From contig CANBWX010000001.1 of the NCBI GenBank assembly GCA_947373225.1, forward strand, positions 62,001-126,000: DNA of 64,000 nt, written 5' to 3'. The number at the start of each line of letters is the position of its first letter. Within the stretch, counting starts at the first letter, position 1. The DNA is from Flavobacteriaceae bacterium. Lineage in GTDB: Bacteria > Bacteroidota > Bacteroidia > Flavobacteriales > Flavobacteriaceae. A program made the position numbers and the translations under genes. Below the pieces are notes generated by a model. The model searched no databases, was not told the origin of the DNA, and saw only the letters and a program-made list of their open reading frames with translations. Of the stretch, positions 717 through 62,976 are shown piece by piece.

Positions 717-1703
717 TTATATTGACATTATATCAGAAACGCGCAATAAATCTCTGTCTATTTCTGTATGTCCTTTTATGGCTTGTTCTAATGGCGTAAG
801 TTCAATCTTATCATTTAAAATTCCAACCATATAATTTGATTTTCCTTCTAATAAGGATTCTACAGCTCTAACACCTAATCTACTAGCAAGAACTCTATCA
901 TAACAAGAAGGTGATCCTCCGCGTTGCATGTGTCCTAAAACCGAAACACGTACTTCGTACTCAGGTAAATTAGCTTCAACATAATCTTTTAATTCGAATA
1001 CATTTTTACCTATTTTATCTCCTTCGGCAATAACAACAATACTGGATGATTTTCCTGCTGCTTTACTTTTTCGAAGTGATTCTACTAATCTTTCCAATCC
1101 TAAGTCTTCTTCAGGAATCAAAATTTCTTCGGCACCAGCACCAATTCCGGCGTTTAATGCAATATGTCCTGCATCACGTCCCATAACTTCTACAAAAAAT
1201 AGACGATTATGTGAACTTGCAGTATCACGGATTTTATCAATACATTCTATAACTGTATTCAAAGCCGTATCATACCCTAAAGTATGACTGGTTCCAAAAA
1301 TATCGTTATCAATTGTACCAGGAATACCCATTACCGGAAAATTGTATTCATTATTAAAAATTTCAGCACCAGTAAAACTTCCATCTCCACCGATAACTAC
1401 GAAGGCATCTATTTCTGCTTTAACCAACTCTTCATGAGCTTTTTTACGACCTTCAACAGTCATAAACTCCTTAGAACGAGCAGATTTAAGTATTGTCCCT
1501 CCTTTATTAATAATATTATGTACACTTCTAGGCCCCATTTCTTTGAAATCTCCTTCGATCATTCCTTGGTATCCTCTATAAATTCCAACACATTGTATAT
1601 TGTGATAAGCACATGTACGTACTACTGATCTAATAGCTGCATTCATACCTGGTGAATCTCCACCTGAGGTTAGTACGGCAACTTTCTTAATTGTTTTTGG
1701 CAT
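717..1703 (-). CDS. pfkA: ATP-dependent 6-phosphofructokinase
   Basis: This enzyme phosphorylates fructose 6-phosphate to fructose 1,6-bisphosphate, the committed step of glycolysis. The 328-residue length is normal for the bacterial PfkA family. Visible motifs are LTSGGDSPGMNAAIR near the N-terminus (nucleotide site), VIGGDGSFTGA (the GGDGS form typical of ATP-dependent enzymes rather than PPi-dependent ones), GIPGTIDNDI with the catalytic Asp, and EVMGRDAGHIA (substrate binding). The ATG at 1701-1703 gives the expected N-terminus. It is the upstream gene of a likely pfkA-gapA pair. A 220-base gap separates it from the tamB-like gene, leaving room for its own promoter. Confidence 0.97.
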   Translation of the reverse strand: MPKTIKKVAVLTSGGDSPGMNAAIRSVVRTCAYHNIQCVGIYRGYQGMIEGDFKEMGPRSVHNIINKGGTILKSARSKEFMTVEGRKKAHEELVKAEIDAFVVIGGDGSFTGAEIFNNEYNFPVMGIPGTIDNDIFGTSHTLGYDTALNTVIECIDKIRDTASSHNRLFFVEVMGRDAGHIALNAGIGAGAEEILIPEEDLGLERLVESLRKSKAAGKSSSIVVIAEGDKIGKNVFELKDYVEANLPEYEVRVSVLGHMQRGGSPSCYDRVLASRLGVRAVESLLEGKSNYMVGILNDKIELTPLEQAIKGHTEIDRDLLRVSDIMSI

Positions 1704-1860
1704 TATTTAAGTATTAAAGTGTAAAATTAATAAACATTCAGCACTATTGAAGCTATGTTTTTAATAAATTAGTAATTGAGGGCTAAATTCAAACGTTTTA
1801 GTTAATAAGTTTATTTTTTACAAATAGGAATGTTACTAAGTAATATATATAAAAGTCAAA

Positions 1861-1896
1861 TATTTTGATATAATATTCAAAATACTATATTATAGT
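1861..1896. repeat. AT-rich palindromes between tamB-like gene and pfkA
   Basis: In the 220-base gap, TATTTTGA (1861-1868) is repeated inverted as TCAAAATA (1877-1884) across eight bases. It is followed at once by the palindrome ACTATA-T-TATAGT (1884-1896). The elements sit just after the tamB-like stop codon in the direction of its transcription. They could act in termination or as a protein site, but there is no clear T-tract and AT-rich DNA yields such repeats by chance. Confidence 0.3.
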
Positions 1897-1923
1897 CAAC
1901 AAATTGATGCTTTTTCTACTTAA

Positions 1924-4900
1924 TTAATCTTCTTCTGGTATAACTCCTTCTTGGTTTTGTTTCTGAATTTTAGTATTTGGCGTCTTAGATTTAGAAGAAT
2001 TAATCAATTCTGGAGACAAACTTGAGTCTTGAAAAACAGGATTTGAATTAGATACTTTATCTATTTTTTTATTTTTAAAAATTTTATTAGCAAGTTCTTT
2101 AAAAGTATCAAAATCAACTTCATAAGAAACCCCTACTCCTTGTGTGTAACCGATGCCTTCTCCTATATAATTGATGTCGTTTTCTTTATTAAAAATTCGT
2201 AAATTTAAAGTTCCATCTTCATTAACTCGATACAACACTTCAACATTTCCAATAACTGCAGTTTGACTGATTCCTCCAAACGGAACACCAACTTTTCCAT
2301 TAATCGTAATTCTTTCATTGACTTTCGACGAAATAGAAGCTACAAATCTTCCATCGGCTTCTTTTCCAATAGTTTTATCGGCCGAAATGATATCAATATC
2401 GACTTTAAATTTTTCATCATCTGAATGTATAATTCCGCTCAACAAGCCTTTGGCAGTTTCAAATGCATTTCCTGAAATAGCAGATTGACTTACCCCTTCC
2501 GCACTCAAAAAACTACCTGTTGAAAGTAAATACAAAGCTTGAGTTTGTCGAATATCTTTATCGTTTAGCTTGTATTCAATTTCGGATTTTAACACATTAC
2601 TTACATTTGGAAATTCGAAACTAAAATCGGGTTCAGGACTTGTCAAATCACCTCGAACACCAATAACAACATTCACATCTACCTTCTTATTAAACGATGA
2701 ATTGTCTAGTAAAACCGCAGGATTTGCCGATGTTTTATAAACTGCTTCAAGATTTAAACGAGCTTTCATGGGATCTCCTTCCCATGCTATATAACCTCCT
2801 TTTTTTACGGTAAATTTCTTATCAATAATACCGCCATATTTAAAGTTATAAGTACCCTCGTATGCCTGAAAATCGCCCCACATATTAAATTTACCCAAAG
2901 TATTTATTTTAAATAATAAGGTTCCATTTCCTTTACCTTTCATTCCATGACCTGAATTTCGATCAAGAATTACTTCGACTTCGGCATTTGGTGTAATATC
3001 AAGATCAAACTCTAATTCAAGTCCTTTATATTTTCTTGAATTATCTACAATTCCTTTTTTAATATTATATTTTTCTTTCGTGGTTAAAAAATGAATGAAC
3101 TCATTTTCACTTACATTTTCAGAATCATTTATTGGGATTTTTAATGCCGATCCTTTTTCTGATTTTGCGTCAACTTTTATAAACAATGCGTTTGTGGGGC
3201 CTTTGATTGTAGCATTTCCGTTGATATATGCAATACCGTAATATGCTGCACCTTCGTGGTCTTTTGTATCAAGCACTAATAATCTTTTTGAATCTATAGC
3301 CAAATCTAATTTCCAATCTGCAAAAATTTTATGTTCTATACTCCCGTTTAAAATTCCTTTTGTACCAAATTTTGTATCGGTAAGCACATTATTCCTGAGC
3401 AAAAACTTTTCATCTGTTAAATCTACAATCGATTTGTCTTCTATTTTATAATCCACATTCAAATACGGAATTGTCATTCCTGCATTATCCACAAAAAGAC
3501 GACCATTAATTTCAGGTTTATCTAAGTTGCCACCAATACTAGCATTTCCTGACGCAAATCCCCTAATATTAGACAAGACATCTCCACCAAGAGAACTTAA
3601 AATTCCGAGATTAAACTTATCCAATTTTAATTTTAAGTCTAGAATTGTTTTATTATTGACAATTTCGAAACTTCCATTGGCATTGAAAGATTCTAAGTTT
3701 TCATTTTCAATATTGGAGTTTACAATAAATTTTCGAAAGGTTTCATCACCAACAATATCTAAATTCAAATTACCTAAATCCGTTTTATTAATATTTAAAC
3801 GGTCTATTTTTATCGAAGCAGTAGGCTGAAATATAGCATTATTTTGTTTATAATTAACAGCTGCATTTATATTTCCGTTAAAAGTAAACTTAGGATCTGT
3901 GGGAGTAATTCCATTTAAATCTACATTTTTTAAACTCACTTTTAAATCTTTGTATGTACTCCCTTTTACATCTCCTATTAAGGAAATTTCTTGGTTTTCA
4001 TGAGACATTATAATGTTATCAAAGTTGAAATTATGCAATGATTTATCAAATACTATTTTATTATCCGTAGCATTTTTTTCATTCAAATACCACAAATAAT
4101 CTTTCAACTTAACCTCAGATTTACTAATTCCAACAACATTATTATTGTCCTTATTTATAGTATGATATAAGTTCAGGTTAAAATAATCTTCTCCTTTTGT
4201 ACCTCCTTTAAACTCAGATCTAAAGAACAAAGTATCTTTCTTGGTTATGTTTATTAAACTGAAATCACGAATGGTGTAATGTTTATTTTTTACACTATCA
4301 AGCTCAACATAAGCATTATAAAGTGGGTTTTTATTGTCGATTTTTACTCTAATATTATCAAAAGTATTTTGATAAGCAACAATTTGTGGCGAATTGAAAT
4401 TGAGTTTAAACTCTTGATTATCAGAATTGATATTTCCTTTGACAATTGTATTCGAACCAATGGCAATTTCTGGATATAATATCTCGACAATTTTATTATA
4501 AATGGTAAAATTGAATTTCAAAAATTGTCCTTTATTAACCTTAATTGGCTTATAATTAGTATAAAGACTTCCAAGCGAATTAACAATCAAATTATTTAAT
4601 TGTTTAAACTGAAATTTTCCTGTAATATCGCCTTCTACAATATCGGGGGAATGGAAGGTAATATTCCGTAATCTGTCTTTATCAAAAGTAGAATTTATTG
4701 TAAAATCATCAAAATTATAGGTGTTTTTTACATTTTGATACGATGTTTTTTTAATAATTACATCGCCGTAAAGATCTTCAATAGAATTCCCAGAAACTTG
4801 AACAACCACATCTCCTTTAAATTTTGAAATAGAGTCATTTACAAATTTTAATTTATGCAAATCCCCATTTTCAACATTAATATGAAAATCATATTTACTC

Positions 4901-11405: not shown

Positions 11406-14180
11406 TTAATTCATACCTCTATTTCCCATTTCACCTTGATAATTATTTCTCCCCGGTTTTTTCAATCCTGAAAGATTCTGAATTTTGTATGTTAGCGAAA
11501 ACATAGCATACCTTTTTAAAACTGTATTTTCTTCATCCCGAATTGTGGTTGCCGAAATTGTTCTGGAATAGCCTTGATTTTGATTTAAAAGATCATAAAT
11601 TTTCACTTTGGCAACCATGCTTTTTTTTAAAAAAATATAGGATAAACTCGTATTCCATAAATAGAAATCTTTCTTAAAACCATCACCAATTTTTGAATTG
11701 TAAGTATATCCAAAATCATTTCCAAAAACCCAAGCATCAGGCCAATAAATAGTAGTTTGCAAATTTACTCTATGAATAACATTTGAACTTGATTGAACTA
11801 AATAATTAGAATATCTTGCCTCATTATAAGTCAAACCATAAGATGGTGCAATGGTTAATAGTTCCCCATAATCATATGCAAAATATATTTTTGGTGTGAT
11901 TCCCAATGATTTTGCATTGTATAAAACGGCATTTGTAAACCCTTTATCTAGTGCATAAGTCCCGTTTAAATTGAGTCCGTATCGCAAAACATGAGCGTCT
12001 CTTTTTATAGATTGATTCCAATTCCAACCTAAAGAAGTAGCATAAGTTCCAGAAACATTTTCATAAGTGGTGTTCTTTTTTCCACTGGCATCATAAACAG
12101 TTGTCGTCACCACTTGGCTGTCGTAAAAATCGCCTCTTAGATACAAACTATACCCAGAACGGGTACGAAAATCATAATTTCTAAAATTAAAATTCACGTT
12201 ATGTTTTTCAATTGGATTCAAATTTGGATTTCCAATAATTGTATTCAAAGGATTAGCCAAGTTTTCAACGGCTAATAATTGACTGGATGTGGGAAGACTA
12301 TTGGTATATTCATAAACTAACGAAATAAATTTGGATCGCGCAATCTTGTATCTAATTTGTGCTCTACCAAGCGGCAAAAGATATTTCTTATTGAGATCCG
12401 TAATTTTATTGAGATAAAGAGAATGATTATCAAACTCAATAATCGATGCGCCAGAATTCAAATTAAAAGTGAATTTATTCTTCTCGAAAGTAAGCCCCAA
12501 TTTTGGACTAACTGTATTTTGTTTTGAAGACGTATAATTAGAAAGTAACTCATTTTTAGCTGAATACGATTGATAACCACCATCAAAATCATAGGTTTTT
12601 AGATCATTTTTAATGTTTTCCCATCCAAAATCTGTTCCAAATCGAACCCGCAAGGAATCGGTTATAGGCTGAGTAAATTCAATGTCTGCCGAATAGGAAT
12701 CATAGGTATTTCCGTTCTTGCTTTTTTGATTTCTATCATCATTTGGTTGACCAGTTTGATAAAAAATAGTTTTAGATTGGTTTAAAACATCCGAATCACT
12801 TTGTGTATTATTATTACTAAAAACGAAGCTAAAATTTTGAGCTTTTTTCTCGAATGCCTTATTAAAATTGATCGTATTAGAAAAATTAGATGATGTGTTT
12901 TCTTTGAATGATTTCGAAGTACTTTCGTTTAATGATTGGTCATTCTCGTCTTTTGAAATACTCGAAGAATCAGAATTACTATTTGAATTGGTTTGATTCA
13001 ATTTTGGTGCAAAAGAAATCCTGGTGGTTGGATTTATTTTATAATCAAATTCTAAATTTACTTTATTCACCGTACTTTCGTCCCTTGTTTTCGATTCCGA
13101 TTCAGTTGTAAAGGAACTTGTTGGTAAGAAATTGATTTGTTTTGATTTATTGTCATTATTCGTAATCGTATTCGCCAAAGAATAACTTACGTTTGAGTCA
13201 AAATTATTGAACCATTCGTCGGAATAATTAAGTCCAGCCAAATTAGATTGGGTAATTCCTTTGGCATTTCCAGAGGAATTATTATTTCCCTTATTATTTC
13301 TTCCACCACCCATATTGTCAAAAACTTCGTCCATAGAAAAGCCCGATGAATTGATATTATTTGAGGAGGCTAGAACACTTATTTTTCGTTTATCGTTAAA
13401 ATAATTCATTACAAAACTGCTTTCGTAACGATCATCAGTACCAAAACCTCCCAAAAATTTACCAAAGAAACCTTTATATTTATTGTTGTCAATTGTAAAA
13501 TTGATACTTGAATCATCCGAACTTGCCTCCTGTCTGGACAATTCTTCCTTTTTAGTTTTTAAATCTGAAACTTGAACTTTCTTGATGATTTCTGCTGGAA
13601 GATTTTTTAAGGCAACTGCCCCATCTCGGTCGAAAAAAGGTTTGCCATTTACCAAAAACTGGCTAACTGTCTTTCCGTTTACAGTTACTTTTCCATCATT
13701 GTCAACTTCAACTCCTGGTAATTGTTTTAATAATGTTTCTACATTAGAATCTGGACGAACTTTAAAAGATTGGGCATTAAACTCTAATGTGTCTTTTTTG
13801 ACTGTAATTGGTGGAGCTTCATTTTTTACTATTACATCTTTCAACGCATTCGTATTTACTACTAAATATATTTTTCCAAAATCTTTATTAGCTAAAATTC
13901 CTTTTTGATCTTCAACATAATTTTGATAGCCTATATAACTAACTTTCAAAAATACAGGTTTATCATGCTTTTTGGTGGCAATTTCAAAAAATCCATTTTT
14001 ATCCGTGGTAGCATATTCAATTACTGTAGAGTCCTTAACATTAGAAAAATATACCGTAGCCGACTCTAAAGGTAAATGAGAAGTAAAATCAAGTATTGAT
14101 CCTTTAATCAGGAATTTATCTTGTGCATTTACAGAAAAAAAGAAAAGAAAAAACAGAAAAAAAGAGTAGCCTTTAGTCAT
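11406..14180 (-). CDS. Outer-membrane beta-barrel protein with carboxypeptidase-regulatory-like and plug-like domains
   Basis: A 924-residue exported protein with a signal peptide (GYSFFLFFLFFFSVNAQ). Residues about 22-115 form a carboxypeptidase regulatory-like beta-sandwich (LIKGSILDFTSHLPLESATV). Next comes a TonB-receptor plug-like part (LLKQLPGVEVDNDGKVTVNG, then FLVNGKPFFDRDG). The rest is a long barrel with alternating strands, ending in a region rich in Gly and Asn. This is the TonB-receptor-related outer-membrane beta-barrel family common in Bacteroidetes. I see no obvious TonB box and no SusD partner, so it is unlikely to be a standard SusC glycan importer. The ligand is unknown. 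It stands alone, 67 bases upstream of the dipeptidase gene on the same strand. Confidence 0.87.
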   Translation of the reverse strand: MTKGYSFFLFFLFFFSVNAQDKFLIKGSILDFTSHLPLESATVYFSNVKDSTVIEYATTDKNGFFEIATKKHDKPVFLKVSYIGYQNYVEDQKGILANKDFGKIYLVVNTNALKDVIVKNEAPPITVKKDTLEFNAQSFKVRPDSNVETLLKQLPGVEVDNDGKVTVNGKTVSQFLVNGKPFFDRDGAVALKNLPAEIIKKVQVSDLKTKKEELSRQEASSDDSSINFTIDNNKYKGFFGKFLGGFGTDDRYESSFVMNYFNDKRKISVLASSNNINSSGFSMDEVFDNMGGGRNNKGNNNSSGNAKGITQSNLAGLNYSDEWFNNFDSNVSYSLANTITNNDNKSKQINFLPTSSFTTESESKTRDESTVNKVNLEFDYKINPTTRISFAPKLNQTNSNSNSDSSSISKDENDQSLNESTSKSFKENTSSNFSNTINFNKAFEKKAQNFSFVFSNNNTQSDSDVLNQSKTIFYQTGQPNDDRNQKSKNGNTYDSYSADIEFTQPITDSLRVRFGTDFGWENIKNDLKTYDFDGGYQSYSAKNELLSNYTSSKQNTVSPKLGLTFEKNKFTFNLNSGASIIEFDNHSLYLNKITDLNKKYLLPLGRAQIRYKIARSKFISLVYEYTNSLPTSSQLLAVENLANPLNTIIGNPNLNPIEKHNVNFNFRNYDFRTRSGYSLYLRGDFYDSQVVTTTVYDASGKKNTTYENVSGTYATSLGWNWNQSIKRDAHVLRYGLNLNGTYALDKGFTNAVLYNAKSLGITPKIYFAYDYGELLTIAPSYGLTYNEARYSNYLVQSSSNVIHRVNLQTTIYWPDAWVFGNDFGYTYNSKIGDGFKKDFYLWNTSLSYIFLKKSMVAKVKIYDLLNQNQGYSRTISATTIRDEENTVLKRYAMFSLTYKIQNLSGLKKPGRNNYQGEMGNRGMN

Positions 14181-14517: not shown

Positions 14518-17500
14518 ATGTCAGTAAAAATTGCCATTTCACACAAAACAACATACAAATTTGACCAAAGTGTTAAATTATTCCCTCATATTTTTAGACT
14601 TCGCCCAGCGGTACATTCTAGGACAGCTATTGAGGGATATTCTTTTAAAATTAGTCCCGAAAATCATTTTATAAATTGGCAACAAGACCCTTTTGGAAAT
14701 TATCAAGCTAGAGTTATTTTTCCTGATAAAATTAAAGAATTAAAAGTCGAAGTCGAAGTAATTGCAAAACTTCAAGTCATCAATCCATTCGATTATTTTG
14801 TAGAAGAATATGCTGAGAAATATCCATTTAAATATGATAATACTCTCAAAGACGAATTAGTTCCTTATTTAAAATTAAGTGAAGAAAGTCCTATATTTTT
14901 AAGATATATTGAAAACATAAAATTAAAGGATTCTATAGAAATAAATGATTTTTTGGTTTACCTGAACCAAGAAGTGTATAAAACGCTTACTTATAATCTA
15001 CGGATGGAAGTTGGCGTGCAAACACCAGAAGAAACATTGAGAATAAAAAGTGGTTCTTGTAGAGATTTTGCTTGGCTATTAATTCATGTTTTGCGACACT
15101 TTGGCTTAGCCACCCGATTTGTTTCGGGTTATATTGTACAATTAGCACCAGATATAAAATCGCTTGACGGACCATCTGGACCCGAGAATGATTTTACCGA
15201 TTTACATGCTTGGGTCGAAGTTTATCTTCCTGGCGCAGGTTGGATTGGACTGGATCCTACTTCGGGACTTTTTGCCAGCGAAGGACATATTCCATTATGC
15301 TGTACGCCTCATTACGAAAGCGCAGCGCCAGTAACTGGTGCTACAGGAAAATGTGAAGTAACCTTTGATTTTGAAAATAAAGTAACTCGTATTCATGAAG
15401 ACCCAAGAGTAACTAAACCCTATTCGGACAGGCAATGGGAAGATATCATGGCGGTAGGAAATGTGGTTGAAAACGATTTGATTCAAGGTGATGTAAGACT
15501 AACAATGGGTGGAGAACCTACCTTCATTTCTATTGATGATTTTGAGGGAGCCGAATGGAATACCGCTGCAGATGGCCCTCTAAAACGAAAATTAGCTTAC
15601 GATTTGGCTCTTCGTTTAAAACAACGATTTGCTCACGGAGGTTTACTGCATTTTGGTCAAGGAAAATGGTATCCGGGAGAATTATTCCCGCGGTGGCAAT
15701 ATGGATTATATTGGAGAAAAGACGGATTCCCTTTATGGAAAAATGATGCGCTGATAGCAAAAGAAGGGGAAACTCAATTTACTTTTCATGATGCTGAAAA
15801 ATTTGCTAATGAGTTAACCAAATTTTTAGGAATTGACACTAAAAACATATTACCTACTTATGAAGACCCGATTTATTGGGCTCTTGAAGAAGGTAAACTT
15901 CCGGTGAATTTAGACCCGATGAAAGTGAATTTAAAAGATTCTATCGAAAGACATAATCTTGCAAGGGTTCTAGAAAAAGGCTTAAATAATCCATCTGGAT
16001 TTGTTTTGCCCATTCAAAAAAATTATACGCAGGATAATTGGGAAAGTTGTGCATGGGAATTTAGACGAGGCAATTGCTTTTTGATTCCTGGGAACTCGCC
16101 AATTGGTTTGCGTTTACCATTAGATTCCTTACCAAAGGTTTCCGTAAACAAGAGAGAAACAGTTGTCGACAGAAGTTTATTCGAAGATTTACCTCCTTTA
16201 GAAGATTGCTCTGAAAAAGTAAAAAATCGTTATGGAACTATTTCAAAAATTGTTAAAGCAGTCAAAAAAGTATTGTCTAAAAAAGAGGAAATAAAGAAAG
16301 AGGACTCCTTATTATTTGAAGTCGACACTTTTATTACAGCAATGTGTGTGCAAGAACGTGATGGAATATTATATGTTTTTCTTCCACCAACGGATTATTT
16401 AGAAGACTATATCGACTTGATTACTTCGATCGAAATTACTGCCGAAAAATTACAAATGCCAGTACGAATTGAAGGATATGAACCAAAAAAGGATTACAGA
16501 GTCGAGAAAATGATGGTTACTCCAGATCCTGGTGTTATTGAGGTGAATGTGCATCCGGCCAAATCTTGGCAAGAAATTGTAGACAACACAACAGCGCTTT
16601 ACGAAGAAGCTTTTCTATCTCGTTTGGGCACCGATAAATTTATGGTTGATGGTCGCCATACTGGAACTGGCGGAGGAAATCACGTAACATTAGGTGCCGA
16701 AAGACCTGAAGATAGTCCCTTATTAAGAAGACCTGATTTATTGCGAAGCTTAATTACTTATTGGCAACATCATCCCGTTTTAAGTTACCTTTTTGCCGGA
16801 CCATTTATCGGACCAACAAGTCAAGCGCCAAGAATTGACGAAGGTCGTGATGAGCGTCTTTACGAAATGGAAATTGCTTTTGACCAAATCCCAAAAGATA
16901 AAGAAGTTCCTTTTTGGATGGTGGACCGGATTTTTAGAAACCTATTGACAGATATCACTGGAAATACACACCGTTCCGAGTTTTGTATAGATAAATTATA
17001 TTCGCCAGATTCATCTACAGGGCGTTTGGGAATATTAGAATTAAGAGCTTTTGATATGCCTCCGCACAAACATATGAATTTAGTTCAAAATTTATTAGTT
17101 CGTTCCTTAGTAGCCAAATTTTGGAAAAACCCTTACGAGAAAAAATTAGTGCGTTGGGGAACTGAATTGCATGATAAATTCTTGTTGCCACATTTCGCCT
17201 ATTTGGATATGATTGATGTGGTTAATGATTTAAAAGATGCTGGATATAATTTTGACATTTCATGGTTCGATCCTTTCTTCGAATTTAGATATCCACACCA
17301 TGGTAACGTGACTATTGATAATATTCAATTAGAAATTCGTTTAGGAATAGAGCCTTGGCACGTACTTGGCGAAGAACAATCTAGTTCTGGAACCTCTCGA
17401 TTTGTAGATTCCTCATTAGAACGCTTGCAAGTAAAAGTTTCTGGAATTGTACCTGATCGTCATATTTTACTATGCAAAGGATGCAGAATTCCGTTAAGAA

Positions 17501-17934
17501 GCACCGGTACAAAAGGAGAATTTGTTGCCGGAATACGCTACAAAGCATGGAATCCGCCCTCCGCATTGCATCCTAATATTGGAATTGATGTGCCACTTGT
17601 TTTTGACTTAGTCGATACTTGGAACAATAAAGTAATTGGTGGTTGTACCTATTTTGTCACTCATCCTGGCGGAAGAAGTTTTGACAGTTTCCCTGTGAAT
17701 AGTTTTGAAGCTGAATCAAGAAAAATAAGTCGATTTTGGGATTTTGGTCACACACCAGATCCAGGACTTGAGGATATGGAAAAAGAGAAAGAAATGACTG
17801 CAAATAATTCAGCAACTTCTCGTTTTTTAGTAGAATCTAAATCAAATTTACAACTTGACACGCCCATAGAGCTCATTGACCCTGAATATCCATACACCTT
17901 AGATTTAAGACATTATTGGAAAGCAAAAGAATAG
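14518..17934 (+). CDS. Transglutaminase-like protein fused to DUF2126 putative amidoligase
   Basis: A 1138-residue two-part protein. Residues about 1-90 are the bacterial transglutaminase N-terminal beta domain (MSVKIAISHKTTYKFDQSVK). Residues about 150-290 are the transglutaminase/papain-like core with a complete triad: Cys181 in SGSCRDFAW, His230 in DLHAWVEVY and Asp246 in GLDPTSG. From about residue 320 to the end is DUF2126, which begins VRLTMGGEPTFISIDD and is regarded as an amidoligase (amine-carboxylate ligase) related to the glutamine-synthetase/GCS fold. There is no signal peptide, so it is cytoplasmic. It is first in a four-gene run with an ATP-grasp/alpha-E gene 75 bases downstream. 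Comparative genomics groups these families as predicted peptide-bond-forming systems, but the product is unknown. Confidence 0.92.
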   Translation: MSVKIAISHKTTYKFDQSVKLFPHIFRLRPAVHSRTAIEGYSFKISPENHFINWQQDPFGNYQARVIFPDKIKELKVEVEVIAKLQVINPFDYFVEEYAEKYPFKYDNTLKDELVPYLKLSEESPIFLRYIENIKLKDSIEINDFLVYLNQEVYKTLTYNLRMEVGVQTPEETLRIKSGSCRDFAWLLIHVLRHFGLATRFVSGYIVQLAPDIKSLDGPSGPENDFTDLHAWVEVYLPGAGWIGLDPTSGLFASEGHIPLCCTPHYESAAPVTGATGKCEVTFDFENKVTRIHEDPRVTKPYSDRQWEDIMAVGNVVENDLIQGDVRLTMGGEPTFISIDDFEGAEWNTAADGPLKRKLAYDLALRLKQRFAHGGLLHFGQGKWYPGELFPRWQYGLYWRKDGFPLWKNDALIAKEGETQFTFHDAEKFANELTKFLGIDTKNILPTYEDPIYWALEEGKLPVNLDPMKVNLKDSIERHNLARVLEKGLNNPSGFVLPIQKNYTQDNWESCAWEFRRGNCFLIPGNSPIGLRLPLDSLPKVSVNKRETVVDRSLFEDLPPLEDCSEKVKNRYGTISKIVKAVKKVLSKKEEIKKEDSLLFEVDTFITAMCVQERDGILYVFLPPTDYLEDYIDLITSIEITAEKLQMPVRIEGYEPKKDYRVEKMMVTPDPGVIEVNVHPAKSWQEIVDNTTALYEEAFLSRLGTDKFMVDGRHTGTGGGNHVTLGAERPEDSPLLRRPDLLRSLITYWQHHPVLSYLFAGPFIGPTSQAPRIDEGRDERLYEMEIAFDQIPKDKEVPFWMVDRIFRNLLTDITGNTHRSEFCIDKLYSPDSSTGRLGILELRAFDMPPHKHMNLVQNLLVRSLVAKFWKNPYEKKLVRWGTELHDKFLLPHFAYLDMIDVVNDLKDAGYNFDISWFDPFFEFRYPHHGNVTIDNIQLEIRLGIEPWHVLGEEQSSSGTSRFVDSSLERLQVKVSGIVPDRHILLCKGCRIPLRSTGTKGEFVAGIRYKAWNPPSALHPNIGIDVPLVFDLVDTWNNKVIGGCTYFVTHPGGRSFDSFPVNSFEAESRKISRFWDFGHTPDPGLEDMEKEKEMTANNSATSRFLVESKSNLQLDTPIELIDPEYPYTLDLRHYWKAKE

Positions 17935-18009
17935 GAAATTACATTGTTGTTCGCTTTAAAAGTCTTTATTTTGTCAAATATAAAAACGCCATTCATTTAC
18001 AATTAACAA

Positions 18010-20601
18010 ATGATTCAAGATATTTCATTGGGACTACTCCAATCTTATAAAGAAAAAATCAATTCCTACGACGAAGTGATTGACCAAAATGGCAATATAA
18101 AGCCGCATTGGAAAGGCCTTTTTGATACCTTAGAATCTATTGGTATTAAAGAATTAGAATTGCGTAATCAAGAAATTATAAAAAAATTAAAAGAAAACGG
18201 GGTTACTTATAATGTTTACGATTCTAATGAAGAAGCAGATCGTGCTTGGAAACTGGATCCAATTCCGTTTTTAATACACGAATCCGAATGGAAAACCATA
18301 GAAAAAGGATTAAAACAAAGAGCCCGTTTATTAGATTTGATTTTAAAAGACCTTTATGGCCCGCAAACATTAATCAAAAAAGGGATTATTCCTGCCGAAT
18401 TAGTTTTTGACAATTCGGGTTTTCTTTTGCCTTGTTTTGACATTAGACAAAAACAAGACAAACAATTACTCAATTATGCCGTTGATTTAGCGCGTGGTCC
18501 TGACGGAAAAATGTGGCTCATTGATAACCGAACTCAATCTCCATCAGGAGCTGGATATGCGCTCGAAAATAGAATTGTGATGAGTAAGGTTTTTCCCGAA
18601 CTCAACAAAAAAACCTATCGAAGCCGGCTTTCCCCCTATTTTAGTCAGTTGCAACAAACTGTTGACGCACTAGGAAATAATACCAATGAAAATCCAAATG
18701 TGGTTTTCTTGACTCCTGGCCCCGGAAACGAAACGTATTTCGAACACGTTTACCTTTCGTCTTATTTAGGTTATACATTGGTTCAAGGAAGCGATTTGCT
18801 CGTTAGAGATGGTTTTTTATACTTAAAATCTATCGACCAACTCGAACGCGTAGATATCATTATCAAGCGATTAGATGACGAATGGTGCGATCCTCTCGAA
18901 TTACGAAGAGATTCGTTGCTAGGAATTCCCGGTTTATTACAAGTGATGCGTTTAGGAAATGTTGCCGTTTTTAACCCTCCAGGAACTAGCGTTTTAGAGA
19001 ATTATGGTCTAATGGCATTCATGCAAAATGCAAGCAAATTTTTACTCAAAGAACCATTATTAATGAGTTCAGTGGCTACTTGGTGGTGCGGACAAACGAA
19101 AGAATTAAATTATGTTATCGCTAATTTGCCCAAATTAATTATAAAGAAAACCAATCGGAAACAAGGTTTTAGATCCATTTACGGGCGCTTATTGAATGAA
19201 CAAGAACTCGAAGATCTGAAAAAACTAATTCTGAAAAATCCGAAAGATTTTGTTGCCCAAGAAGAAGTTAGTTTATCAACAACACCTTCCTTTATTGATG
19301 GAAAAATAGAACCAAGATTGGCTTCAATTCGAGCGTTTTTAGTAGCTGACGGTGATGATTACCAAGTCATGCAAGGTGGTTTAACACGTAGTTCTGCCGT
19401 GAAAGGAAAGTTCGAAATTTCGAACCAATTCGGAGGAATTTCAAAAGATACTTGGATATTATCCGATAAACCATCTGCCTATATTGAAAAAGTTATCGAA
19501 CGAAAAAACAACTACAACCTACTGAATAATTCGTTGACAAGCCGAAATGCCGAAAATTTATTTTGGGTAGGTCGCTTGTGCGAAAGAACAATGGCGCTCC
19601 GTAGTTTTCTGAGAATTATTCTGAATAGACTGAACGAAAACGTAACCAAAACAGATAAAAAACAACCGGAATTTTTAGTAGTTTTATTAAAATCGCTGAC
19701 CCATCTTACTCAAACTTATCCTGGATTTGTTGGGAAAGAATTCAAAGAAGGTGAAGTATTTGATAATGAGGCTATTTTCGAAAATCCAATTGCAGAGTTA
19801 CTGCTTTTGATTAATGACACCGAAAAAGCCGGTTCGGTAGTTTATAATATTCAATCACTGCTCATCACGATTAATCAAGTCAGTGAAAAATGGAATCATG
19901 ACACCAGACGTATTATTAACTTAGTTCAAGAAAGCTTTTTTGCACTTAAAAATACAAATACTGGCAGCATCAATGAAGTGAATCATTCTTTAGATAAATT
20001 ACATATTCGACTTTTTTCTTTTTATGGAAATATCTACGAAACTTTACCGCGAGATAATGGTTTTTATTTATTGGAAACAGGAAAAAATGTAGAACGTATT
20101 TTATCCTTAATCTCCGTTTTTCGTTCTACTTTCAATTACGAAAAAATTGAGGAAGAAGAAGGCATGTTAATCGAAGCTATTTTAGAAAACCATAATTTAT
20201 TGACTCAATATCGAAATATTTACAAATCGCATTTGAGCTTGAAAGCAGTTATAAATATGGTGTTTTTAGAAAAAAACTTGCCATACACCCTATCTTTTTT
20301 ATTGGATAAACTTTCCTTTTATCTTTCTAAATTGCCCAAAACAAATGAACCACACCGATTGAGTATTGCCGAAAAATCAGCTTTGGAAGCCAGTACTATT
20401 GTCAAATTAATTAATGCCGATACTTTGATAAAAGTAGAAGAAAGTACCCAATTTCGACCTGAATTAGATGAAACACTTTCGAGAGTTTTTGAACTGATTT
20501 CGAATGTTTCCAACAATTTATCTAGTCTGTATTTTAACCATTCTGTAATGCAACATTCTGTTTTAGAAACCCTTGAAAATAGAGAGACAGATGAAATATA
20601 A
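18010..20601 (+). CDS. Circularly permuted ATP-grasp ligase fused to alpha-E domain
   Basis: An 863-residue cytoplasmic fusion. The first ~480 residues are a circularly permuted ATP-grasp domain: PFLIHESEWKTIEKGLKQRA, LPCFDIRQKQDKQLLNYAVD, LARGPDGKMWLIDNRTQSPS and the later RLASIRAFLVADGDDYQVM. The last ~350 residues are the helical alpha-E domain beginning NSLTSRNAENLFWVGRLCER. ATP-grasp enzymes form amide bonds through acyl-phosphates, and alpha-E is a helical partner almost always linked to this ligase type. In other bacteria the two parts are often separate genes; here they are one protein. Its 3' end overlaps the next transglutaminase gene (ATG at 20591) by 11 bases, so the two are translationally coupled. 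The substrate is unknown. Confidence 0.92.
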   Translation: MIQDISLGLLQSYKEKINSYDEVIDQNGNIKPHWKGLFDTLESIGIKELELRNQEIIKKLKENGVTYNVYDSNEEADRAWKLDPIPFLIHESEWKTIEKGLKQRARLLDLILKDLYGPQTLIKKGIIPAELVFDNSGFLLPCFDIRQKQDKQLLNYAVDLARGPDGKMWLIDNRTQSPSGAGYALENRIVMSKVFPELNKKTYRSRLSPYFSQLQQTVDALGNNTNENPNVVFLTPGPGNETYFEHVYLSSYLGYTLVQGSDLLVRDGFLYLKSIDQLERVDIIIKRLDDEWCDPLELRRDSLLGIPGLLQVMRLGNVAVFNPPGTSVLENYGLMAFMQNASKFLLKEPLLMSSVATWWCGQTKELNYVIANLPKLIIKKTNRKQGFRSIYGRLLNEQELEDLKKLILKNPKDFVAQEEVSLSTTPSFIDGKIEPRLASIRAFLVADGDDYQVMQGGLTRSSAVKGKFEISNQFGGISKDTWILSDKPSAYIEKVIERKNNYNLLNNSLTSRNAENLFWVGRLCERTMALRSFLRIILNRLNENVTKTDKKQPEFLVVLLKSLTHLTQTYPGFVGKEFKEGEVFDNEAIFENPIAELLLLINDTEKAGSVVYNIQSLLITINQVSEKWNHDTRRIINLVQESFFALKNTNTGSINEVNHSLDKLHIRLFSFYGNIYETLPRDNGFYLLETGKNVERILSLISVFRSTFNYEKIEEEEGMLIEAILENHNLLTQYRNIYKSHLSLKAVINMVFLEKNLPYTLSFLLDKLSFYLSKLPKTNEPHRLSIAEKSALEASTIVKLINADTLIKVEESTQFRPELDETLSRVFELISNVSNNLSSLYFNHSVMQHSVLETLENRETDEI

Positions 20602-21460
20602 TTTAAAACACAAAACCATTTACACCTATGTAAATGAAGTACACAATTATCAAAGTATTTTGTGTCTGCAACCAAGAAATTCAGAAAAACAAAAATGTAC
20701 CAATTTCAAAATCGAGATTGAGCCTGCGCCTTCAAAAATATATTCACGAACGGATTATTTTGGAAACATCCAACATTATTTTTCGCTTCATGAATCGCAT
20801 AAATCACTAAAAGTTGTTGTTTCTAGCGAAATCGAAGTTTTAAATAACCTAGTTCAGCCTTTAAACCCAATTACTTGCGAGGAAGCCAGACAAAAATTCC
20901 GCAACGATCTTGAACTAAAAATCCAAGTTTTACAATACCAATTGCCGAGTCAATTCATTAGTTGGGATGAAGAAATTGTAGCTTTTGCCGAAACCTGTCT
21001 GATTCCGAATGTGTCGCTTTTTGAAGCAGTTTTAGATTTAATCAAAAAAATATTTACTGAATTCCAATTTAAATCTGGCGCGACTAATGTTAATACTCCA
21101 TTGAAAACGGTACTAAAAGAAAGAAAAGGCGTTTGCCAAGATTTCTCTCATTTGGCAATAGCCAGTTTGCGAAGCGTTGGAATTCCTGCTCGATATGTAA
21201 GCGGATATATTGAAACGCTTCCGCCAAAAGGTAAAGTAAAACTAGAAGGTTCTGATGCTTCACACGCTTGGATATCTGTTTATATTCCGGAAATGGGCTG
21301 GTGCGAATTTGACCCGACTAACAACATGATTCCGCAACAACGCCACATTGTAACGGCATACGGAAGAGATTTTGCTGACGTATCACCAATGAAAGGAATT
21401 ATTTTTAGTTCTGGTGATCACAAAGTAAAAGTTGAAGTAGATGTAATTCCTGTAGTTTAA
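20591..21460 (+). CDS. Transglutaminase-like cysteine protein, second copy in the island
   Basis: A 289-residue stand-alone transglutaminase-like protein. It has the bacterial N-terminal beta domain (MKYNLKHKTIYTYVNEVHNY) and the core with Cys182 in RKGVCQDFSHL, His225 in SDASHAWISVY and Asp241 in CEFDPTNN, a full triad. Such prokaryotic domains can be peptidases, amidases or cross-linking enzymes. The ATG at 20591 was preferred over an upstream TTG at 20573 because the family starts at this point and it overlaps the ATP-grasp stop. The partner transglutaminase in the DUF2126 protein is diverged. No signal peptide is visible, so it acts with its neighbours in the cytoplasm. Confidence 0.92.
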   Translation: MKYNLKHKTIYTYVNEVHNYQSILCLQPRNSEKQKCTNFKIEIEPAPSKIYSRTDYFGNIQHYFSLHESHKSLKVVVSSEIEVLNNLVQPLNPITCEEARQKFRNDLELKIQVLQYQLPSQFISWDEEIVAFAETCLIPNVSLFEAVLDLIKKIFTEFQFKSGATNVNTPLKTVLKERKGVCQDFSHLAIASLRSVGIPARYVSGYIETLPPKGKVKLEGSDASHAWISVYIPEMGWCEFDPTNNMIPQQRHIVTAYGRDFADVSPMKGIIFSSGDHKVKVEVDVIPVV

Positions 21461-21500
21461 TTTATTAAAAAAAAGCAATATTAAAAAAAGACATCCCCTT

Positions 21501-22391
21501 TTGACGCCTAGAAAAGCTTCAATAATCGATCTAAATACAGCGAACACTTTATTTGTAGAAATTATTAATTCGGGAATTCCATTTGGTTATCAACAAGCCA
21601 ATTGCCATAATATTTCACATTATATAAGTTTACTATTAGAATCTAAAGGATATATATGTGCCAAAATTTGGGCATTTGCACCAGTGGTTTATTCTACAAA
21701 CAGCTCCCGTTTGATTTCGTTTGTTGATAAAAAAAATCTATCTCCAAATGGAGCTATCGATTGGGGCTATCACGTGGCACCGGTCCTTCAAGTTCGGATT
21801 GGTGATAAAGTGCGTAAAATGGTAATTGATCCCGGACTTTTCCCGAAAGGACCAGTTCGCTATAGAACTTGGCTTGCGAAACTTAAAACAAGAAAACTCA
21901 TTTATTTAATCATGGATTCGGAGTGGTATTTATACAATTCCTCGATGATACCCAATTCGCAATTGCTAGCCGATTCTAATGGATTCTTAAATATAAATCC
22001 ACCCAATATTAAACTCCCAGATTGGTTTTCGGACAAACTTATTACCGATTTTTTTAAATATGAAGATGATGCACTAAACCAACATTGGATAGAAAAAGGA
22101 TTGGCGGTAAATGAAACCACGGATATTTTCTACACTACCGAAATTCAGCCAATATTGCATTCGAACCTTCACCAAGATTTAGTAAATGATTATAAAATGC
22201 TTGTTGGTAACGTTTTTAATTTCGAAACTGTTTTTAGAGATAATAATTGGAATTATGAAATGAATGATGACTTCCAATTTAAACATCTAGAAATAATTGC
22301 TAAATACCGCGAAATATACTTTTCTAATCTGTCGAAATGGAAAGAATCACTTTTGATATTAAATGAAATTATAAAGAAAAACTCTCTTTAA
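21501..22391 (+). CDS. Protein-glutaminase-like (protein glutamine deamidase) family protein
   Basis: A 296-residue protein. Its first ~150 residues match the pattern of bacterial protein-glutaminase, known from Chryseobacterium proteolyticum. Cys35 lies in ANCHNISHYISLLLESKGY, His91 in WGYHVAPVLQV and Asp110 in VIDPGLFPKGPV, in the order Cys-His-Asp used by that enzyme with similar spacing. Protein-glutaminases deamidate protein-bound Gln to Glu. The family call is from motif recognition, not a search. The C-terminal ~140 residues are unrecognised and end in a helical stretch. Unlike the secreted enzyme it has no signal peptide or propeptide. No ATG is available: TTG at 21501 is used, and the frame is open back to 21456. 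It lies 40 bases after the transglutaminase gene. Confidence 0.7.
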   Translation: MTPRKASIIDLNTANTLFVEIINSGIPFGYQQANCHNISHYISLLLESKGYICAKIWAFAPVVYSTNSSRLISFVDKKNLSPNGAIDWGYHVAPVLQVRIGDKVRKMVIDPGLFPKGPVRYRTWLAKLKTRKLIYLIMDSEWYLYNSSMIPNSQLLADSNGFLNINPPNIKLPDWFSDKLITDFFKYEDDALNQHWIEKGLAVNETTDIFYTTEIQPILHSNLHQDLVNDYKMLVGNVFNFETVFRDNNWNYEMNDDFQFKHLEIIAKYREIYFSNLSKWKESLLILNEIIKKNSL

Positions 22392-61647: not shown

Positions 61648-62976
61648 ATGAATTATAAAACTGATATTGGATACCGAAAAGAAAGTTTGATAAAGTTGCT
61701 GAATGCCGTTATCGTCTACGAAAACGAAATCATTCAAGCTTTATATGACGATTTCAAAAAGCCTGCTTTTGAAACTGTGCTTACCGAAACGAGCTATGTA
61801 ATATTAGAATTAAAAGACACTATTAAAAATTTGAAGAATTGGGCTAAGCCAAAAAGAGTTTTTCCATCCTTACTCAATTTCCCTTCAACTGATTGTATTT
61901 ATAAAGAACCTTACGGCAAAGTATTGATAATAGCGCCATGGAATTATCCATTTCAATTGGCGCTTTGTCCTTTAATTTCAGCAGTTGCAGCCGGAAATCA
62001 AGTGGTAGTAAAACCATCCGAACTTACTCCGAAAACCTCCGAAATAATTGCCAAAATAATCGCAAAAGTATTCGACAAAAACCATGTTGAAGTTATTGAA
62101 GGCGGTGTCGAAATTTCGCAAGAATTATTGGCGCAGCGCTGGGATTATATATTTTTTACAGGAAGTGTCGCCGTTGGTAAAATCGTGGCAAAAGCCGCTG
62201 CCGAAAATCTTACGCCAGTCACCCTTGAACTTGGTGGAAAAAATCCTTGTATTATTGACGAAACCGCTAATTTGAAATTGGCTGCCAAAAGAATCGTTTG
62301 GGGAAAATTTATGAATGCAGGACAAACTTGTATTGCGCCTGATTATATCTTGATTCAAAAGGATATGAAAAGTCATTTCGTAACCTACTTAATAGAAGAA
62401 ATTACCAAAGCCTACGGGCAAAATCCTGTTGAATCCCCTGATTTTGCACGAATCGTAAATACTAAAAATTGGCAACGATTGGTCAATATGATCGAGCCTA
62501 AAAAAGTAATTTTTGGCGGACAAACGGATATCGAAAATTGTTACATCGCTCCTACTCTACTTGAAGAAACGTCTACTGAAAGTTTAATCATGGCTGGCGA
62601 AATATTTGGTCCCATATTGCCCATTCTAACTTACGAAAGTGAAACAGATATTGAGGCGATTTTGTCCAAATACGAAAAACCGTTGGCTTTATATATCTTC
62701 ACCGAAAATCACGCATTTTCGAAAAAAATAATTCAGAATTATTCTTTTGGAGGTGGTTGTATCAATGACACAGTTGTTCATTTTTCGAATAAAAGAATCC
62801 CTTTTGGAGGTGTGGGTCATAGCGGAATTGGCGCTTACCACGGAAGCCTTAGTTTTGATATTTTTTCGCATCAAAAAGGAATTGTAAAAAAAGCAAATTG
62901 GCTAGATTTACCGATGCGTTATGCACCTTATAAAGGAAAATTAGCAACCATCAAAAAAATATTAAAATGGTTGTAA
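61648..62976 (+). CDS. Aldehyde dehydrogenase family protein
   Basis: A 442-residue NAD(P)-dependent aldehyde dehydrogenase, of the shorter class 3-like type. It has IIAPWNYPFQLALCPLI (cofactor region), VVKPSELTPK, FFTGSVAVGK, the catalytic Glu in PVTLELGGKNPCII and Cys228 in FMNAGQTCIAPDY. The C-terminus (FGGVGHSGIGAYHGSLSFDI) is typical of class 3 fatty-aldehyde enzymes. The ATG at 61648 was chosen rather than a TTG one codon earlier. It starts 25 bases after DUF5723. The substrate is probably a medium- or long-chain aldehyde, by family trend only. Confidence 0.94.
   Translation: MNYKTDIGYRKESLIKLLNAVIVYENEIIQALYDDFKKPAFETVLTETSYVILELKDTIKNLKNWAKPKRVFPSLLNFPSTDCIYKEPYGKVLIIAPWNYPFQLALCPLISAVAAGNQVVVKPSELTPKTSEIIAKIIAKVFDKNHVEVIEGGVEISQELLAQRWDYIFFTGSVAVGKIVAKAAAENLTPVTLELGGKNPCIIDETANLKLAAKRIVWGKFMNAGQTCIAPDYILIQKDMKSHFVTYLIEEITKAYGQNPVESPDFARIVNTKNWQRLVNMIEPKKVIFGGQTDIENCYIAPTLLEETSTESLIMAGEIFGPILPILTYESETDIEAILSKYEKPLALYIFTENHAFSKKIIQNYSFGGGCINDTVVHFSNKRIPFGGVGHSGIGAYHGSLSFDIFSHQKGIVKKANWLDLPMRYAPYKGKLATIKKILKWL

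Follow-up and report, generated by a model that had tools for sequence, protein, structure and literature searches.

A predicted protein-glutaminase-fold amidohydrolase gene with an apparent non-canonical start codon in a flavobacterial ATP-grasp/Alpha-E/transglutaminase island

Results

Four co-directional genes in the window

We analyzed a window of 64,000 nucleotides (the whole stretch at positions 62,001 to 126,000 of contig CANBWX010000001.1) from the genome of a Flavobacteriaceae bacterium (GCA_947373225.1; 178 contigs, 3.0 Mb) and, within it, an island that combines a circularly permuted ATP-grasp/Alpha-E fusion and two transglutaminase-like proteins with a protein-glutaminase-fold amidohydrolase, here called gene 4. 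An earlier reading made without database searches (the sequence-only reading) had described four co-directional genes at this locus, and all four open reading frames (ORFs) are present on the plus strand with the domains that it named, as judged by Pfam. Gene 1 (14518..17934 (+); 1138 amino acids (aa)) encodes a transglutaminase-like domain (Bact_transglu_N, PF08379, and Transglut_core, PF01841) fused to DUF2126 (PF09899, 1300 bits). Gene 2 (18010..20601 (+); 863 aa) is a single ORF in which a circularly permuted ATP-grasp domain (PF14403, 469 bits) is fused to Alpha-E (PF04168, 143 bits). Gene 3 (20591..21460 (+); 289 aa), a second transglutaminase-like protein referred to as TG2, carries Bact_transglu_N (PF08379) and Transglut_core (PF01841) at 82.5 and 79.3 bits and overlaps the preceding gene by 11 bases (20591 versus 20601), as had been claimed. 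On reading, both transglutaminase domains contain the Cys, His and Asp motifs typical of such enzymes. Gene 4 (21480..22391 (+); PF18626) spans 303 aa when read from an ATT codon. Chance is excluded as the source of these assignments, given the profile scores and the conservation seen across 21 distinct gene-4 homologs, which comprise 12 loci from a genus sample and 17 from a genome-contig collection, minus eight contigs found in both.

Gene 4 has the predicted fold and triad of a protein-glutaminase

Gene 4 as originally called (21501–22391) matches Gln_deamidase_2 (PF18626) with 79.8 bits against a curated cutoff of 25, and the five Protein Data Bank (PDB) sequences that it matches are all protein-glutaminases. 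The NCBIfam equivalog for protein-glutamine glutaminase, NF040782, is not reached (37.7 bits; cutoff 250). A model built from 12 close rows had a predicted local distance difference test score (pLDDT) of 40.4 and was replaced by an AlphaFold2 model built from 30 more diverse rows, with a pLDDT of 76.3 and a predicted template modeling score (pTM) of 0.80. Foldseek returned six PDB matches for this model at E 0.001, again all protein-glutaminases; the alignment underlying the model contains secreted relatives, so that the model and this fold match are not wholly independent. VIA-align superimposed the model on the Chryseobacterium proteolyticum protein-glutaminase (PDB 2zk9) with Z 15.3 and a root mean square deviation of 2.9 over 166 residues, while the family ranked after the protein-glutaminases, that of the N-terminal glutamine amidohydrolase NTAQ1, scored Z 6.9 and Factor XIII and transglutaminases 2 and 3 gave weaker matches (Z 4.0–4.5). 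This second search covered residues 5–254 of the model. The predicted fold is thus that of a protein-glutaminase, and the Cys-His-Asp arrangement that the sequence-only reading had noticed aligns with that of the solved enzyme. Residues Cys42 (codon 21603..21605 (+)), His98 (21771..21773 (+)) and Asp117 (21828..21830 (+)) are invariant in all 30 rows of the conservation alignment and correspond to Cys42, His83 and Asp103, the catalytic triad of 2zk9. Modeling and alignment therefore identify the gene 4 product as a predicted protein-glutaminase-fold enzyme with an intact triad.

With 303 residues, the gene 4 protein exceeds mature 2zk9 (185 residues) by about 120. The structural match to 2zk9, which contains gaps, stops at residue 254 and leaves a long C-terminal helix (residues 270–302) outside. 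Conserved positions extend through this C-terminal region in gene-4-type proteins, even in a relative of 30% identity that belongs to a different family of the class. At the other end, conservation begins ∼14 residues ahead of the first modeled secondary structure. Inspection by eye found neither a signal peptide nor a pro-region and no hydrophobic stretch, and the protein is therefore probably cytosolic and made without a pro-sequence.

Gene 4 apparently lacks an ordinary start codon

Conservation of the gene 4 protein starts abruptly at I-K-K-(R)-H-P-L-L, 21 bases upstream of the TTG at 21501, at an ATT codon (21480..21482 (+)) that we propose as a non-canonical start. In the following, L numbers denote compared loci, G numbers genomes (G000 being the window's own) and C numbers contigs. 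In 18 of the 21 homologs no ATG, GTG or TTG occurs in the interval from the upstream in-frame stop to the conserved Pro, the three exceptions being L049 and L052, with a distant TTG, and L074, with a GTG at −7. By contrast, an ATT or ATC lies 4–7 codons before this Pro in 20 of the 21, including the homolog from Cytophaga. In four of the 18 (L051, L055, L058 and L064) there is no canonical codon before the catalytic Cys either, and the automatic ORF calls begin after it.

The proposed start is preceded in the window by an A-rich stretch (21464..21479 (+)). Relative to the ATT or ATC (n = 20), A is found in 85% of homologs at −12, 80% at −11, 80% at −9, 65% at −6 and 70% at −3, compared with a mean of 41% over 30 bases and only 40% at −13. 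This context appears close to that described for initiation in Flavobacterium johnsoniae, with A at −3, −6 and −12/−13 (excerpts of PMC8710568). The other three island genes, which serve as a control, begin with ATG in 52 of 52 cases (15 of 15 readable for gene 1, 18 of 18 for gene 2 and 19 of 19 for gene 3). The infC gene of the window's genome (L117, G000:C20:35220-35726) also has no ATG, GTG or TTG at its N terminus; judged by the IF3 N terminus, its likely start is ATA. Translation of infC begins at ATT in Escherichia coli and at ATC in Streptomyces, initiation factor 3 (IF3) represses such codons, and only a small number of genes with a non-canonical start have been characterized, according to the portions of PMC5472188 used here. 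These patterns suggest that gene 4 does without an ordinary start codon and that its production is probably held down by throttled translation, as for infC.

Other routes into gene 4 were considered. The TTG at 21501 is very probably wrong as a start, given that the 11 other sequences among the first 12 homologs have TTA or GTA at this position, and the ACG encoding the Thr after HPLL is absent in L053, L055 and L059. Entry by frameshift is disfavored: in 12 of 20 homologs no canonical start runs into the core in either of the other frames, while in the remaining eight at least one other frame offers such a start and a frameshift is there disfavored, short of exclusion. Stop read-through from TG2 is rejected, as TG2 and gene 4 are in different frames in the window and the distance between them is not constant from locus to locus.

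Gene 4 is linked to the island within one lineage

We scanned 199 genomes across the family, 249 of the genus and 395 of the phylum, in addition to the broader genome-contig collection; plasmid and viral contigs were also searched and gave no gene-4 match. In the family sample gene 4 is present only in the window's own genome (1 of 199). In the genus sample 18 genomes match at E 1e-3, 12 with close homologs (identity ≥59%) and six weakly (29–37% over ∼100–130 residues), and the fused ATP-grasp/Alpha-E gene, counted at identity ≥67%, occurs in 14. All 12 close homologs lie after TG2 on the same contig as the fused gene, ∼0.9–1.7 kb beyond it. The genome-contig scan yielded 17 gene-4 loci, 15 of them at the island, such that 19 of the 21 distinct homologs from all scans adjoin it downstream of TG2. 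At one of these loci, L050, two small genes with Gp49-like and helix-turn-helix (HTH) domains (12774-13438), a probable toxin–antitoxin pair, are inserted between TG2 and gene 4. In the phylum sample PF18626 was found in 12 genomes, two of which (the window's and G640) have it at the island, while the other 10 show no island gene in the stretches read, up to ∼7 kb on each side. Ten phylum genomes match the fused gene at E 1e-100, of which one is unfused, leaving nine with a full-length fusion. The system proposed in the sequence-only reading is thus partly supported. Gene 4 is far from rare beside the other three genes within the genus, and its fold agrees with the proposal; the set itself is rare, and the association was not seen beyond this lineage. 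The build/trim/deamidate sequence and the common substrate put forward in that reading are hypotheses, and it did not mention that gene 4 lacks a canonical start codon.

A tree of rpoB from 23 genomes of our choosing places 10 carriers such that at least three changes are needed, and a single clade of carriers is rejected (approximately unbiased test, p-AU 1.2e-45); one gain with losses could still be the history of the carriers. Seven genomes were excluded from this tree, five with no rpoB match (G000, the window's own, G443, G377, G449 and G447) and two in which rpoB is only fragmentary (G229 and G448).

Two further observations concern related loci. L075 (CALPPA020000143.1) is a contig of a metagenome-assembled genome (MAG) labeled Klebsiella pneumoniae, yet its island is clearly flavobacterial and the label is probably wrong. 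The window's genome also holds a second, unfused ATP-grasp gene of the same family (L062, G000:C127:5317-6762), complete relatives of which (L115 and L116) stand with alpha-E-like and transglutaminase genes and with no adjoining Anbu, the proteasome-like protein of related operons.

The block behaves as a relocatable unit

Flanking genes were surveyed at 18 island loci with automatic ORF calls of ≥70 aa, some possibly spurious. The ORF that follows gene 4 belongs to 10 families among the 16 loci with a neighbor, and that preceding the block to seven families, also among 16 loci. Three of the downstream families (EamA-like, 197-aa and 485-aa; seven loci) adjoin one another in one region, which reduces the downstream settings to about eight. 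Directly before the block, nine loci carry a GYF_2-domain gene of ∼240 aa (for example L050:4814-5536; Pfam was run on this copy, and the others were recognized by similarity), which is possibly a fifth member or merely a neighbor at a landing site.

Relatives of these sites exist without the block. In L177 (G309), a 181-aa gene and a GYF_2-like gene, 40% identical to that of L069, are followed after 19 bases by 197-, 507- and 374-aa genes. The order is GYF_2, block, 197, 485, 372 in L069 and 186-aa gene, block, 198, 485 in L074, and L177 thus corresponds to the arrangement around the block in L069 and L074, minus the block. The window's genome itself contains GYF_2-like, EamA-like and 485-aa genes without a block (L172; GYF_2-like gene at G000:C135:1731-2459), its block lying elsewhere, in the window, and L173 (G434) is the same. 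At the L172/L173 site the EamA-like gene is inverted relative to its counterparts in L050 and L058, which indicates that the L172 site is rearranged and not a clean empty site.

Gene histories were compared at 15 loci, with a short tree search. In pairwise identity, gene 4 correlates with the ATP-grasp gene and with TG2 (rho 0.71 for each), and these two correlate with each other (rho 0.78), whereas DUF2126 identities correlate with no other island gene (rho 0.15–0.21). DUF2126 forms two supported, strongly separated clades that are discordant with the other island genes, and at two MAG loci, L053 and L056, it does not adjoin the ATP-grasp gene; in the L053 genome it is found on another contig with a GYF_2-like gene (L171). 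These comparisons suggest that the DUF2126 gene has been exchanged on its own among islands. By the same measures, gene 4 appears tied to genes 2 and 3 at least as tightly as DUF2126 is, and the varied flanks together with the relatives' sites that lack the block place gene 4 inside the unit.

Some islands depart from the standard arrangement. In L049, a G434 MAG contig, the DUF2126 gene is split into two ORFs (101-943 and 1030-3516), which may reflect either a genuine break or a misassembly. L061 and L128, two rearranged islands that lack gene 4, have an extra transglutaminase-like gene (L061:9945-10880 and L128:9756-10598) between ATP-grasp/alpha-E and DUF2126, antiparallel to the former; Bact_transglu_N_2 was shown for the L061 copy only.

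Discussion

We propose that gene 4 supplies a dedicated amide hydrolase to a relocatable amide-ligating unit, that the four genes are inherited together, and that hydrolase synthesis is throttled by an AUU/AUC start; taken as a whole, we give this explanation about an even chance of being right. In this proposal the ATP-grasp/alpha-E protein would activate a carboxylate with ATP, leading to amide formation, and the two transglutaminase-like proteins would transfer or trim acyl groups, the most economical reading being that making or transferring an amide is the task of genes 2 and 3, frequently together with gene 1. The gene 4 enzyme would then hydrolyze, in the cytosol, a glutamine-type side-chain amide of the product, of its precursor or of a tagged protein. 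In place of a pro-sequence, restraint would come from the start, a kind of codon that IF3 represses.

Several observations weigh against this proposal, and some of them fit better with gene 4 being a passenger, namely a cytosolic protein deamidase that has a target of its own, joined the ATP-grasp/alpha-E/transglutaminase unit in a single flavobacterial lineage and is inherited along with it but takes no part in its pathway. Gene 4 is missing from two of the 14 fused islands of the genus sample (G229 and G309; L060 and L061) and from seven of the nine in the phylum sample, six of them outside the genus and one, G593, inside it. Nor does every homolog sit at an island: in L077, a MAG contig, the three-gene island is on another contig (L113, of which 14 of 20.9 kb were read); Cytophaga aurantiaca (L079) has a 53%-identical homolog and no fused island, its unfused ATP-grasp/alpha-E set being accompanied by an Anbu-like gene; and in G567 a distant gene-4-type protein and a fused island occupy different contigs. 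Unlinked homologs such as these mean that a gene-4 protein can exist without the fused island. The carriers are, moreover, clustered on the rpoB tree, and shared descent thus accounts for some of the linkage and of the correlation between distances. No gene for a substrate was recognized. As for expression, four of the 21 gene-4 leaders match a Bacteroidetes-type promoter pattern, TTG-N17-23-TAnnTTyG, compared with 0.3 on average and 3 at most in 500 single-base shuffles, so that gene 4 may be separately transcribed there, which would argue against strict co-expression. In addition, of the 18 homologs that lack a canonical codon upstream, all but the four named above (14) have an internal ATG, GTG or TTG between Pro and Cys, at differing places, and initiation there, trimming 1 to 27 core residues, could account for their translation. 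What a passenger would not readily explain is that gene 4 has been kept at the same end of the block in about eight downstream settings while other sites lack the whole block, that it was retained in L050 despite the Gp49-like/HTH insertion after TG2, and that its identities track those of ATP-grasp and TG2 better than those of DUF2126 do. On balance we regard a passenger as rather unlikely.

Gene 4 might also be an eraser that does the work of Anbu, namely a cysteine amidohydrolase, unrelated to Anbu, that cuts the same kind of amide as this N-terminal nucleophile (Ntn)-type protein does in classical operons. Classical operons do contain an Ntn-type hydrolase (excerpts of PMC6376114 and PMC5666114), and the Cytophaga ATP-grasp set in L114 includes a proteasome-family protein. 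No Anbu match was found in any of the 16 flavobacterial gene-4 carriers, several of which are incomplete MAGs, and two genomes with a fused island and no gene 4 (G628 and G593, the latter a genus genome outside the 249-genome sample) do have Anbu; the same query also matches G446. The absence of Anbu that the sequence-only reading had noted is true of the window's genome, but it is nearly genus-wide and not specific to the island: none of the 249 genus genomes has a match, whether or not it carries gene 4, and the mutual exclusion therefore says little and lends replacement weak support only. Furthermore, C. aurantiaca has gene 4 together with two Anbu matches, and G309 has neither. We consider replacement of Anbu improbable. 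Even less probable, in our estimate, is that gene 4 transfers acyl groups to amines in the manner of a transglutaminase, which would make it the third of the island's enzymes for cross-linking or tagging. Its weaker structural matches do include Factor XIII along with transglutaminases 2 and 3, but the solved structures closest to it, far ahead of the rest, are those of protein-glutaminases, and these hydrolyze.

The significance of a dedicated hydrolase lies in the chemistry that it would bring to the system. The portions of PMC5666114 and PMC6376114 used here name neither a substrate nor a product for ATP-grasp/alpha-E/transglutaminase operons, and a linked enzyme from a family of known chemistry, the hydrolysis of glutamine side-chain amides, offers a chemical handle on the product. 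The start codon of gene 4 poses a second, independent question, and it has a practical side, in that ordinary ORF calling loses the catalytic Cys in at least four of the 21 genomes. A bolder extension, which we hold to be doubtful, is a bacterial amide-tagging system with a cytosolic glutaminase as eraser, in which an AUU/AUC start found in two orders replaces the pro-sequence and ties deamidation to the level of IF3. The parts all belong to known families, and the island is a variant of a known, unsolved system. Our literature search found neither this combination of genes with gene 4 nor the conserved start, and no paper that links a protein-glutaminase to ATP-grasp gene sets. In the excerpts of a classification paper used here, PF18626 is placed beside type IVb secretion genes only (PMC10318531).

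Comparison with known systems

The island shares with the Anbu-type operon a circularly permuted ATP-grasp protein, Alpha-E and a transglutaminase in one run, and differs in that ATP-grasp and Alpha-E are fused, a transglutaminase-DUF2126 gene is added, Anbu is missing and a protein-glutaminase-fold enzyme is encoded last. In the sections of PMC6376114 and PMC5666114 available to us, the classical operon, in which ATP-grasp, alpha-E and transglutaminase accompany an Ntn-type hydrolase, is put forward as a system for forming peptides or tagging proteins; its ATP-grasp protein frees phosphate from ATP, Anbu shows no peptidase activity, no stable complexes were obtained and no function had been confirmed by 2017. 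The RimK/RimB and Rlo loci likewise hold an ATP-grasp protein and a hydrolase in one operon. However, as far as the excerpts of PMC12239564 go, their hydrolases are aspartic peptidases and not a cysteine amidohydrolase, the transglutaminase of Rlo is an inactive membrane protein, and neither locus has a named alpha-E or DUF2126.

With the secreted protein-glutaminases of C. proteolyticum (PG, 2zk9) and Flavobacterium (FBPG, 8z3i), the gene 4 protein has in common its Pfam family, predicted fold and triad. The Chryseobacterium enzyme is made with a 21-residue signal and a 114-residue pro-sequence (excerpts of PMC6132073). In contrast, the gene 4 product has neither by eye, is the longer protein, falls short of NF040782, begins at an apparently non-canonical codon and is linked to amide-ligase genes. 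As regards that codon, gene 4 resembles infC and Streptomyces sigR, which start outside ATG, GTG and TTG and are repressed by IF3 (excerpts of PMC5472188). It differs from both in that its proposed start comes from comparison only and in that it encodes an enzyme of an accessory gene set.

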